A stretch of DNA of 64,000 nt from Kitasatospora gansuensis (GTDB lineage Bacteria; Actinomycetota; Actinomycetes; Streptomycetales; Streptomycetaceae). Positions 37,261 through 44,959 of this stretch are shown here, one piece after another. A program made the position numbers and the translations under genes. The notes beneath the pieces are model-generated. The model worked only from the letters and a program-made list of their open reading frames with translations, was not told the origin of the DNA and ran no database searches. Position 1 is the stretch's first letter. The number at the start of each line of letters is the position of its first letter. The DNA is taken from assembly GCF_014203705.1 (NCBI RefSeq), contig NZ_JACHJR010000001.1, positions 1,054,001 through 1,118,000 of the forward strand. The letters run 5' to 3'.

Positions 37261-40797
<3,537 letters not shown>

Positions 40798-40938
40798 GGG
40801 GCTACTCCCTGGGTGCGACGGCTGTCGGCTATGCGGCCTGTCCGTGTACGGGACGCACGCGGTCAGGGTATCGGGCCGCGGGCTCGGGGCGAGAACCTGT
40901 TTCGCATCCTGAGCGTCTTCCTCCCACAAGGAGGACGG

Positions 40939-41973
40939 ATGATCAAGAAGATCGGGCGGCGTTGGCGGGGCTGGTCGCGGTGGCGGCGGACCGGGGTGAG
41001 TGGCCTGCTGGCCCTGGCGCTGCTGCTCCTTCCGGCGGCCGGGGCGGCGGCCGCGCTGCGCTGGCAGTACGCCGGCGACCCGTCCGACCAGGCCAGAACC
41101 CGGGGCCGGGACGCGCTCTGGCTGGGGCACGCGTGGGTGGACGGACGGAAGGGGGAAGCGGACGTCGCCGCATTGACGCGGCTGCTGGCCGGGACGGGCA
41201 TGCGCGACCTGTACGTGCACACCGGGCCGCTGGAGCACGACGGCTCGCTGCGTGCGGACCGCTACCCGAGGGCCCGTCAGTTCCTCGCCGAGGTGCACCG
41301 GGAGCTGCCCGGGCTGCGGGTGCAGTCCTGGCTGGGCGATGTGGTGCGGCCGGAGAAGGACGGCCTGGAGCTGACCGACCCCGCCGTCCGCGACCGGATC
41401 ACCGCCGCGAGCGGGCAGGTGCTGGACCTCGACTTCGACGGGGTGCACTACGACCTGGAACCGATCCGCTCCGGCTCGGCCGGCTTCCTGGCACTGCTCG
41501 ACCAGGCACACGCGCTGACCGCCGCCCGGGGTGTGCCGCTCTCGGTGGCGACCCCGCAGATCGATCCGCTGCCGGGCCTGCACGCGCTCTCCACCACCGT
41601 CTTCGACCACGGCAAGTGGTGGTCGCAGGCGTACTTCGCCGAGGTGGCCCGGCGGGTCGAGCAGGTCGCGGTGATGTCGTACGACACCGGGATGCCCGTG
41701 CAGTCCCTGTACGGCGGCTACGTGGCCCAGCAGACCACGCTGGCCCTCGAGGTGACGCCTTCTCAGGTGGACCTGCTGATGGGGCTGCCCGCCTACCAGG
41801 ACGACACCTTCGGCCACCGGGGCTCGGCCGAGACGGTGGCCGCCGCCGTCCGGGGCGCCCGGCTCTCGCTCGGCCGGACGGCGCCGGGACGGCAGGGCTT
41901 CGGCCTGGCGCTGTACGTCGACTTCACCGCCACCTCGGCGGACTGGGCCGCGTACCGGGCCGGCTGGAGCTGA
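40939..41973 (+). CDS. Secreted GH18-like TIM-barrel protein
   Basis: 344 residues from ATG 40939 (AAGGAGG upstream). A basic N-terminus with a hydrophobic helix (about residues 19-41) acts as signal or anchor. The body reads as a glycoside hydrolase 18-like barrel: LDLDFDGVHYDLEPI matches the DGxxxDxE catalytic strand, with E174 the likely acid, and VAVMSYDTGMP matches the MxYD strand. The middle Asp of the chitinase consensus is only partly kept, so activity is likely but the substrate is uncertain. It is upstream of and co-oriented with the FHA-like and kinase-lytic genes and divergent from metH. Confidence 0.75.
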   Translation: MIKKIGRRWRGWSRWRRTGVSGLLALALLLLPAAGAAAALRWQYAGDPSDQARTRGRDALWLGHAWVDGRKGEADVAALTRLLAGTGMRDLYVHTGPLEHDGSLRADRYPRARQFLAEVHRELPGLRVQSWLGDVVRPEKDGLELTDPAVRDRITAASGQVLDLDFDGVHYDLEPIRSGSAGFLALLDQAHALTAARGVPLSVATPQIDPLPGLHALSTTVFDHGKWWSQAYFAEVARRVEQVAVMSYDTGMPVQSLYGGYVAQQTTLALEVTPSQVDLLMGLPAYQDDTFGHRGSAETVAAAVRGARLSLGRTAPGRQGFGLALYVDFTATSADWAAYRAGWS

Positions 41974-42108
41974 GGGCGGGACGGCTCCGGTGAGCGGCGG
42001 CCCGGCCTGATTGGCCCGAACGGCCGCCACCCGTACGGATGGTGACTGCCCGACAGCGGAGCGTCTAGCATGGTTCGCGCACGACCGCCGCCGGCAGGAG
42101 GAGCCTCG

Positions 42109-42942
42109 ATGGACACCGTCATCGTCCAACTCCCGCCGCGCCGGGGTGAGGTGCCCTCGGACCGGCCCCGGCTGCTGCGGATGGGGCCCGGTGAGCAGGC
42201 GGACTTCGGGCGGGGTGCGCCGGACTGTCCGGTCGCCATCGAGCTGGCCGACCAGGGGGTCTCCCGGCGGGCGGGCGAGGTGACGGCGGCCGAGGACTAC
42301 TGGCGGCTGTCCAACTTCAGCTCCACCGCGACGTACGTGGTGGAGAACCTGGAGGGCGCGGGCGAGCACGTCAAGGTGGCGCCCGGGCGGCTGGGCGCAC
42401 CGGTGCCGTTCGAGTTCGCCCGGGTGGTGCTGCCGTCGGTCGACGGGCCGAGCGACTTCAAGGTCTTCGCTCCGCAGCACGCCTACCTGGACGGGCAGCC
42501 GGACCGCAAGGGCGGCGACCTCACCGTCAGCCCGTTCGCCCTGGACCCGACCGCCAAGTACTTCCTCGTCCTGCTGGCGCTCTGCGAACCGCGGCTGCGC
42601 GAGCCCTCCGCGGCAGCCGTCCCCGGGGTGAACGACGTGCTGCAACGGCTGCACCAGCACCCGGACTGCCGCACGCTGACCCGATCCGCCGTCAACTACC
42701 ACATCGACTATCTGGCCGACACCAAGCTCCGGCTCCGGGAGTGCGAGGACGGCGGGCGGACGGGCCGCAAGCGGGAGGAGCTGGTGTCGCTGGCACTGCG
42801 CTTCGACCTGGTCCGCGAGGAGCACCTCGCGCTGCTGACCGCACCGAGGGCGGCGGCAGTGGTGAGCCAGGCAGTGATGGGCCAGGCAGCGGTGGGCCAG
42901 GCGGCGGGCGCTGGGCCCGTCGCCGCCCGGCGCGGCTGCTGA
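42109..42942 (+). CDS. FHA-like domain protein
   Basis: 277 residues from ATG 42109 (AGGAGGAGCCTCG upstream). Residues 30-85 read like a forkhead-associated phosphothreonine-binding fold: ADFGRG, then GVSRRAGEVTAAEDYWRLSN and FSSTATYVVEN. The second half is helical, with a possible winged-helix region (LTRSAVNYHIDYLADTKLRL). No signal peptide, so cytoplasmic. It lies 12 bp before the kinase gene, so it is a probable phosphorylation-dependent partner or substrate. The last 35 residues contain a degenerate GQA repeat. Confidence 0.75.
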   Translation: MDTVIVQLPPRRGEVPSDRPRLLRMGPGEQADFGRGAPDCPVAIELADQGVSRRAGEVTAAEDYWRLSNFSSTATYVVENLEGAGEHVKVAPGRLGAPVPFEFARVVLPSVDGPSDFKVFAPQHAYLDGQPDRKGGDLTVSPFALDPTAKYFLVLLALCEPRLREPSAAAVPGVNDVLQRLHQHPDCRTLTRSAVNYHIDYLADTKLRLRECEDGGRTGRKREELVSLALRFDLVREEHLALLTAPRAAAVVSQAVMGQAAVGQAAGAGPVAARRGC

Positions 42943-42954
42943 GACCCGGCGCCG

Positions 42955-44427
42955 ATGGAGCCGACCGACGTCCCGACCGGCTACCTGGTGGCCGGGTACC
43001 GGATCACCGGCCCGATCGGGGCCGGGGCCTGGGGCCGGGTGTACGCGGGACGCAGCGAGGCCGACGGGAGCCCGGTGGCGGTGAAGTTCCTGCCGCCGGG
43101 GCGCCTCGCGCCCGGGCAGCGGCGGACGCTGGCGGAGCTGACCCGGCGTGAGATCCGGTTCAGCCGTCGGGCCGACCACCCGCAGCTGATCCGGACCCTG
43201 GCGGTGGTCACCGTGCGGGACCCGGACCGGCAGGCGCTGGACGGCGCCGTCGCGCTGGTGATGGAGCGGGCCGAGCGCAGCCTCCAGCAGCTGCTCCAGG
43301 ACGCGGAGCCCGGCCGCCCGCTCCCCGGGGCCGGGCCGCTGCTGACCGAACTGTGCACCGGGCTGGCCCATATGCACGGCAAGGGCTGGGTGCACGGTGA
43401 CCTGAAACCGGGCAACGTGCTGCTGATGGCGGACGGCAGTGTCCGCCTCGCGGACTTCGGGCTGACCACCGAGCTGGAGGGCACGCACGCCTACATCCCT
43501 CCGCTGGGCTCGCTGGATCACGTGCCACCGGAGTGGTGGTCGCAGCGCTCGGGGCCCCGGGGCGTCCAACTCCGGCCCGGGGCCGACGTCTGGGCCTTCG
43601 GGGTGCTGGCCCATCAGGTGCTCACCGGTGGGCTGCACCCCTTCCTCGGCGCGACCGCACGGGCCCGGGGCCTGGCCGCGCAGGCGTACGCCCGGGGCGT
43701 GACACCACTGCGGCTGGACGAACGGCTGCCGGCCGGGTGGCGGGCGCTGATCGCCGACTGCCTGGCGGTGGACCAGGCCGTCCGGCCGGACGCCCGCCGG
43801 CTGACGGCTCGACTGCGGGCTCTGCACACTCCACCCCCTCGACGACGGAACCGGATCGGCCGGCTGACGGTCCTGGCGGCGGCCCTACTGGCAGCCGTCC
43901 CGGCGGCCGGCTGGGCGCGCCTCCCCGGGCAGGCGCCCCTGCCCCCTCCTCCCCCGGCGGCCGGTGCCGGTGCCCTGCCGGCGGACGCCGACGTACCGGC
44001 TGCTCTGCGCGAGCCGATCGAGCGGGCCGCCCGGGCCTGCCCCGAGCCGGAGATCAGCCCGGCCCTGATCGCCGCCATGCTCAAGGCGGAGAGCGGCTTC
44101 GACCCGGCCGCCGCCCGCCCGGCGACCCAGGAGTACGGCATCGCGATGTGGACGCCCTCGGTCTTCAAGGCCTGGGCACAGGACGGCGACGGTGACGGCC
44201 GGAAGGACTACATGTCGGCCCCGGACGCCATCATCACCATGGGCAACTACGTCTGCTGGCTGGACCAGCAGCTCAAGCGCCGGGGCACCGGCGGCGACCT
44301 GCGTGAGCTGGTCGCCGCCGGGTACCGGACCAGTGACAAGACGGTGGCCGATGCCGGGGGCGTCCCGGAGCGCGTCCGCTCCCATGTCGACCTGGTGCTG
44401 CGCTACCTGGCGCAGTACGGCGGTTGA
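42955..44427 (+). CDS. Ser/Thr kinase fused to lytic-transglycosylase-like domain
   Basis: 490 residues. The kinase domain (residues 15-290) has the glycine loop GPIGAGAWGRVYAG, catalytic Lys in VAVKFL (K44), catalytic loop VHGDLKPGNVLL (D149, with Gly replacing the usual Arg), DFG at 167-169 and PPEWW. A membrane helix lies at about residues 303-323, then a Pro-rich linker. Residues 355-490 resemble an SLT/lysozyme-like domain, with ISPALIAAMLKAESGFDPAA placing the catalytic Glu at E379. The predicted topology is kinase inside, lytic domain outside. Bacterial wall-sensing kinases normally carry PASTA or other binding domains there, so an enzyme-like domain is unusual. Confidence 0.85.
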   Translation: MEPTDVPTGYLVAGYRITGPIGAGAWGRVYAGRSEADGSPVAVKFLPPGRLAPGQRRTLAELTRREIRFSRRADHPQLIRTLAVVTVRDPDRQALDGAVALVMERAERSLQQLLQDAEPGRPLPGAGPLLTELCTGLAHMHGKGWVHGDLKPGNVLLMADGSVRLADFGLTTELEGTHAYIPPLGSLDHVPPEWWSQRSGPRGVQLRPGADVWAFGVLAHQVLTGGLHPFLGATARARGLAAQAYARGVTPLRLDERLPAGWRALIADCLAVDQAVRPDARRLTARLRALHTPPPRRRNRIGRLTVLAAALLAAVPAAGWARLPGQAPLPPPPPAAGAGALPADADVPAALREPIERAARACPEPEISPALIAAMLKAESGFDPAAARPATQEYGIAMWTPSVFKAWAQDGDGDGRKDYMSAPDAIITMGNYVCWLDQQLKRRGTGGDLRELVAAGYRTSDKTVADAGGVPERVRSHVDLVLRYLAQYGG

Positions 44428-44440
44428 CGGGACGTCACCG

Positions 44441-44485
44441 GACGGAGCCTCAACAGACGGGGCCTCAACAGACGGGGCCTCAGCA
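44441..44485. repeat. 15-bp tandem repeat, three copies
   Basis: Three adjacent copies of GACGGGGCCTCAACA (one mismatch in copy 1, one in copy 3) fill the gap between convergent genes and run into the stop codon of the secreted-protein gene at 44480. Confidence 0.85.
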
Positions 44486-44851
44486 GGTGGGCAGGCCGGG
44501 CACGGGCTCGTCGTTGCCGCCGCCGGAGAGGTAGATGACGTTGACCCAGACGCCCTTGTTGCCGCTGTCGTCGTCGGTCTTGGCGTACCACTTGTTGTAG
44601 TACTGACCGTCGGACATCCGGGTGCCGACCGCCTGGCAGTAGAAGTAGTTGGTGCCGGCATGCAGGGTGCCGACCCGGACGTTGCCCTCCCGGAAGGACG
44701 GGGCGTCCTTCCAGACGTGGCAGTTGTACTTGCCGCCGCCGATCCCGTAGCAACCGCTCGCCGCATCCGCACTGACGGCGGTAGCCCCGAGGGAGGCGAC
44801 ACCGAGCGCGATCGCGGCACCGGCCATGGCCAGCCTGCGCACACCGAACAT
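44480..44851 (-). CDS. Small secreted protein, hypothetical
   Basis: 123 residues from ATG 44851 (AAGGAG upstream). A clear Sec signal peptide (VRRLAMAGAAIALGVASLGA, cleavage near SADAASG) precedes a domain of about 90 residues with four cysteines (GCYGIGG, YNCHVW, YFYCQAV, PTC), probably two disulfides. The aromatic-rich sequence (YYNKWYAKTDDD, VWVNVIYLSGG) resembles small SH3-like secreted proteins of streptomycetes. The role is unknown; binding to wall or host surfaces is conceivable. Confidence 0.82.
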   Translation of the reverse strand: MFGVRRLAMAGAAIALGVASLGATAVSADAASGCYGIGGGKYNCHVWKDAPSFREGNVRVGTLHAGTNYFYCQAVGTRMSDGQYYNKWYAKTDDDSGNKGVWVNVIYLSGGGNDEPVPGLPTC

Positions 44852-44959
44852 GAGGGTTCTCCTTGCTGGTCTCGGCGCGGACTCTCCCGCGCCGAGACCC
44901 AGCGAACCACCGGGCCGAACCCACCGGTACCTGACACCTGTCAGGGTCACCCGTACCGC

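Follow-up and report, generated by a model that had tools for sequence, protein, structure and literature searches.

Background

Wall sensing by bacterial Ser/Thr kinases is known mainly for PASTA domains. The PASTA kinases (PknB/PrkC/Stk1) combine an N-terminal kinase inside the cell, one membrane helix and a wall-directed C-terminal domain outside. Among the enzymes that act on the wall, SLT enzymes have ES, GLMQ and AYNAG motifs in common. EmbR, the regulator associated with the kinase PknH, is of the SARP type, with the domain order wHTH-BTAD-FHA, and we know of no PknH-type ectodomain described as SLT. In Mycobacterium tuberculosis, the PknH/EmbR system consists of a membrane kinase and an FHA-containing regulator as its likely substrate, and the locus described below has a precedent there, in that PknH phosphorylates EmbR in an FHA-mediated manner (PMC4601284).

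We analyzed a stretch of 64,000 nucleotides from Kitasatospora gansuensis (hereafter the window), in which a membrane kinase gene follows an FHA gene. The kinase has the overall layout of the PASTA kinases, but differs from them by an SLT fold outside and a non-RD catalytic loop; PASTA repeats gave no Pfam match in it, and its NF033483 score of 81 bits falls far short of the cut-off (450). Its resemblance to MAD6 and other defence-associated kinases is confined to the kinase domain (mad6 model, 155 bits), whereas NF047741 scores 67 bits against a cut-off of 460. A literature search of partial coverage returned no paper on kinase-SLT fusions, which may be mentioned in a 2025 bacterial-kinase atlas, and neither SLT nor transglycosylase domains come up in a survey of kinase architectures from 2005. 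As argued below, the two genes probably form a wall-signalling module, in which an SLT-derived receptor kinase would bind wall glycan and signal to the FHA regulator.

A transmembrane kinase with an SLT-like ectodomain

The kinase gene comprises the following features:

42955..44427, + strand: transmembrane Ser/Thr kinase with an SLT-like ectodomain, 490 aa (ORF, Pfam, family alignment)
42997..43803, + strand: protein kinase domain, residues 15-283 (Pkinase, E=2.5e-33)
43393..43401, + strand: non-RD catalytic loop H147-G148-D149 (family alignment)
43855..43911, + strand: predicted membrane helix, residues 301-319 (best hydrophobic segment, preceded by an Arg-rich stretch)
43987..44424, + strand: extracytoplasmic SLT (family 1 lytic transglycosylase/lysozyme-like) domain, residues 345-490 (Pfam, profile, AlphaFold)

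The ATG at 42955 opens one uninterrupted frame of 490 aa that runs to the stop at 44427. Pfam and hydrophobicity divide its product into a kinase domain, a single membrane helix and a C-terminal SLT domain. The helix is somewhat less hydrophobic (KD 1.74) than is usual in the family (median 2.15 in 60 proteins), and the Arg-rich stretch in front of it points to an N-in/C-out topology. Between the helix and the SLT domain lies a Pro/Ala linker, 25 residues long here and with a median length of 33 in the same 60 proteins. The AlphaFold model of the whole kinase has a mean pLDDT of 79; when used as a query against PDB and viral structure libraries it retrieved kinases only, a search uninformative on the SLT part. 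Pfam, hydrophobicity and AlphaFold thus agree with the original prediction, made from the DNA letters, of an intact kinase, one membrane helix and an SLT/lysozyme-like domain, and its AMLKAESGF segment, E379, D149 and HGD all lie where it had placed them.

That prediction had allowed for a misassembled junction between two separate genes. GC content at codon positions 1/2/3 is 79/56/91% for the kinase gene and 72/52/93% for the SLT part, a pattern that indicates a genuine coding frame continuing across the kinase-SLT junction. Moreover, the same fusion recurs in dozens of independently sequenced genomes from five families, so that an artefact of assembly or annotation can practically be dismissed.

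The sequence hallmarks of a Hanks-type Ser/Thr kinase are all present, namely the Gly-rich loop, the VAIK Lys, the catalytic-loop Asp and the DFG Asp. G24, K44, E66, D149, K151, N154 and D167 are invariant in an alignment of 61 family proteins, as is Thr177 of the activation segment, and by this comparison the product keeps every kinase catalytic residue. The middle position of the HGD loop is Gly in 57 of the 61 proteins and Ala in the other 4. This conservation marks the whole family as non-RD, as had been proposed from HGD standing in place of HRD. The original prediction took this to suggest activation without phosphorylation of the activation loop; with Thr177 invariant, such phosphorylation may still be required.

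The SLT ectodomain

Within the ectodomain, the following elements are discussed below:

44038..44040, + strand: Cys362, presumed disulfide partner of Cys434 (invariant, 70/70)
44089..44091, + strand: Glu379, catalytic-acid position (E in 68/70 kinase-linked SLT domains)
44131..44157, + strand: EYGIAMWTP, in place of the GLMQ motif (70-domain alignment)
44182..44208, + strand: DGDGDGRKD, EF-hand-like (calcium-type) loop (likeness to secreted relatives and MltB-type enzymes)
44254..44256, + strand: Cys434, presumed disulfide partner of Cys362 (invariant, 70/70)
44317..44334, + strand: AGYRTS, in place of AYNAG (70-domain alignment)

With the whole protein as query, the Pfam family SLT (PF01464) matches residues 364-465 (E=5e-5). 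The SLT domain as sole query raises this match to 4.9e-6 (26.5 bits against a cut-off of 21.3) and likewise brings SLT_2 above its cut-off. A profile of the family's SLT domains aligns with secreted SLT/NlpC-P60 proteins over almost its whole length, with E values of about 1e-20 to 1e-26. AlphaFold renders the SLT part as all-helical, mostly with pLDDT 80-94, and places E379 near the tail of the helix 369-380. The C-terminal part might, as the original prediction conceded, have lacked an SLT/lysozyme fold; Pfam and profile both find SLT homology there, and the model is helical throughout. A search of PDB sequences with the window's SLT domain gave just weak partial matches of the MltB/SltB type (best 0.016), and the profile built from kinase-linked SLT domains retrieved no SLT chain there. 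The DGDGDGRKD loop, which is degenerate in part of the kinase-linked family according to the alignment, would presumably bind calcium.

The domain is thus homologous, at profile level, to family 1 lytic transglycosylases (Slt70 type, GH23), with which it shares the catalytic Glu-Ser pair, but its GLMQ and AYNAG motifs are replaced. The secreted SLT-NlpC/P60 protein L155 (C1:3575926-3576333) of the same genome carries a homologous SLT domain (39% identity) with the same cysteines and a DGDGDG-type loop, but has complete ES/GLAQ/AYNAG motifs and no kinase.

Rewriting of the active-site motifs

Motif occupancy was counted in 70 kinase-linked SLT domains, which come from related species and are therefore not independent events, and in 16 non-kinase (secreted) relatives, one of which duplicates a protein of the host genome itself. 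The ES motif is present in the window protein as E379-S380, and position 380 is Ser or Thr in all 70 kinase-linked domains. At the GLMQ site, essentially all kinase-linked copies read G(I/V)A(M/R)W; the Gln position is occupied by Met, Arg or Leu, and by Gln in none of the 70. Similarly, the AYNAG site reads (A/G)YRTS in essentially all copies, with Arg at the Asn position in 68/70 and Asn in 0/70, Tyr457 being mostly retained (65/70). The secreted relatives, by contrast, keep the Gln in 15/16 and the Asn in 13/16 (14/15 and 12/15 once the duplicate is removed). This opposition indicates that the motif rewriting is tied to the kinase fusion and is fixed, rather than a product of random decay. 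The putative cleft-lining residues E379, W399, R458 and S460 rank among the most conserved positions of the domain.

The Glu379 position itself is lost in two divergent kinase-linked copies, as Gln in L121 and as Leu in L154, yet both retain the SLT-kinase layout and an FHA partner.

The "catalytic-type" label first given to AMLKAESGF therefore holds for its Glu, present in 68 of 70 domains, and fails for the rest of the active site, in which GLMQ and AYNAG are both replaced and from which two copies have lost the Glu as well. These same substitutions make binding by the ectodomain likelier than cleavage. If so, this kinase may differ less than first suggested from wall kinases with "passive binding domains".

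A working lytic transglycosylase, with an altered substrate or pace and with cleavage itself coupled to kinase signalling, is by comparison unlikely. Both replaced motifs, in 70/70 domains, and the two members that carry Gln or Leu for Glu with layout and FHA partner intact argue against it. Still, Ser/Thr380 is universal, the secreted homologues have complete ES/GLxQ/AYNAG motifs, and an altered GLMQ motif, in which the Gln is nevertheless kept, is tolerated in the PECACE family (PMC550655). It is the near-invariance of Glu379, which an active enzyme would keep, that prevents us from rating this possibility any lower.

The FHA partner gene

The gene directly upstream of the kinase is described as follows:

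42109..42942, + strand: partner gene, 277 aa, FHA domain (residues 1-128) and C-terminal helical, probably winged-HTH domain (about 145-245) (structure neighbours, alignment)

This gene stops 12 bases 5' of the kinase gene, and a homologue lies directly upstream of the kinase at every family locus examined (kinase E<=1e-30). A structural comparison of residues 1-128 retrieves FHA domains almost exclusively (best Z 8.0), starting from a model of low confidence (pLDDT 52). In the homologue alignment, F33-G34-R35-G36, S52-R53 and N69 are invariant, so that the positions of FHA phosphothreonine binding (G34-R35, S52-R53 and N69) are kept in the partner. Its C-terminal part is helical and likely a winged HTH: one divergent partner member alone gave a MarR_2 signal (4e-4), below the curated cut-off, and domain searches with the window protein found no HTH match. 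In contrast to EmbR, the partner is FHA-first, and Pfam detected neither BTAD nor Trans_reg_C in it.

A search around the kinase loci for a third operon gene common across clades found none; the neighbouring genes vary from clade to clade. At four loci (L116, L117, L118 and L126), the stretch taken contains an FHA(-HTH) homologue but no kinase downstream of it, which suggests that the regulator exists apart from the kinase too. At L116 and L126, a LacI-type regulator adjoins the kinase-less FHA homologue.

Distribution and selection

The host genome measures 8.3 Mb. Kitasatospora sp. Root107, whose kinase is 95-97% identical, is the closest relative that was found. A kinase match at E<=1e-30 was present in 51 of 150 sampled genomes of the host's family, in samples drawn evenly rather than exhaustively and with paralogues bearing other ectodomains included. 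A scan of named genomes located 44 loci in Kitasatospora or Streptomyces, plus a single weak match in Microterricola that covered the kinase alone. Kitasatospora aureofaciens ATCC 10762 is one of the carriers of the system. The search across actinobacteria recommended in the original prediction thus finds the kinase-helix-SLT layout in 60 aligned Kitasatospora/Streptomyces proteins, and divergent FHA-paired SLT kinases in four further actinobacterial families of the same class (f17, f18, f19 and f26).

Comparison of the window with Root107 gave dN/dS values of roughly 0.08 (kinase), 0.06 (SLT part) and 0.16 (linker). Purifying selection acts as strongly on the SLT part as on the kinase.

Exchangeable ectodomains

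The FHA and kinase pair serves as a chassis on which ectodomains of the SLT, Cys-rich, inhibitor I36 and PG_binding_1 types are exchanged; neither the FHA partner nor this exchange figured in the original prediction. The Cys-rich type, which has no Pfam name and looks SH3-like by eye, occurs on 13 kinases, including a paralogue in the host genome; inhibitor I36 (1.7e-9) and PG_binding_1 (1.2e-15) were each found on an FHA-paired sister kinase. A PQQ/beta-propeller-like ectodomain, as read by eye, was also seen, with no FHA gene found within the stretch taken. In a kinase-domain tree, built rapidly and weak at many of its forks, ectodomain labels change at least 8 times over seven groups, outgroup included. 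SLT kinases appear at several separate places of this tree, a scatter that suggests that SLT may be the ancestral ectodomain.

In the host's own paralogous pair (L009:3224-5496, - strand), the FHA and kinase genes overlap as ATGA and the ectodomain is Cys-rich, not SLT.

Sister-kinase domains such as inhibitor I36 suggest protein ligands, and, with two active-site motifs gone, the SLT ectodomain too could bind a protein (for instance a lysozyme-inhibitor-like or divisome partner), or merely position the kinase at the wall, its glycan cleft being a relic. A relic would drift, however, whereas E379, W399, R458 and S460 are among the best conserved residues; we regard this explanation as quite improbable.

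Other genes and frames near the kinase

Convergent with the kinase gene, 44480-44950 (-) encodes a small secreted Cys-containing protein without Pfam match, whose homologues are retained next to the kinase at several loci of Kitasatospora. Further upstream, 40939-41973 (+) encodes a membrane-anchored or secreted protein, also without Pfam match, in which a GH18-like DFDGVHYDLEP segment can be recognized by eye. This gene was considered as a wall hydrolase of the kinase operon and rejected: among the loci compared its one counterpart is in Kitasatospora sp. Root107, and it has no Pfam match. Finally, an antisense frame of 2188 aa occupies 37261-43827 (-). Its C-terminal part reads as a cobalamin-dependent methionine synthase, and the remainder is a spurious GC-rich extension over the FHA and kinase genes.

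A proposed model for wall signalling

In the scheme that we infer for the receptor-kinase module, the catalytic domain would lie inside the cell and the SLT-derived domain outside, about 25-35 residues past the helix. This domain appears to keep the fold of a glycan cleft and usually Glu379, two of its three active-site motifs being rewritten. It would most likely act as a receptor that binds a peptidoglycan glycan strand, a muropeptide or a nascent chain near the membrane and would not cut it efficiently. Occupancy by the ligand would alter kinase assembly or activity, and the kinase would then phosphorylate itself, the co-encoded FHA protein, or both. The FHA domain would dock on phosphothreonine, and the C-terminal, probably winged-HTH, domain of the partner would bind DNA and change gene expression, in the manner of PknH/EmbR. 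What endures of the enzyme-like sensor first envisaged is the union of a wall-enzyme fold with a complete transmembrane kinase, which is conserved and subject to purifying selection; the proposed cleavage is disfavored by the replaced motifs.

On a broader scale, a lytic transglycosylase fold may have been converted, by fixed rewriting of two of the three active-site motifs, into a dedicated glycan receptor for a modular actinobacterial family of FHA-paired kinases that exchange one wall-directed outer module for another; we advance this reading tentatively, at slightly under even confidence. If true, such modules would be a phosphorylation-based counterpart to two-component systems with interchangeable sensors. 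Complete secreted SLT domains, Glu-retaining kinase-linked domains and Glu-lacking kinase-linked domains would form a natural series from enzyme to sensor. A repurposed wall-cutting enzyme serving as receptor, its presumed effector being encoded by the adjacent gene, would make a self-contained system whose ligand, signal and output are all testable.
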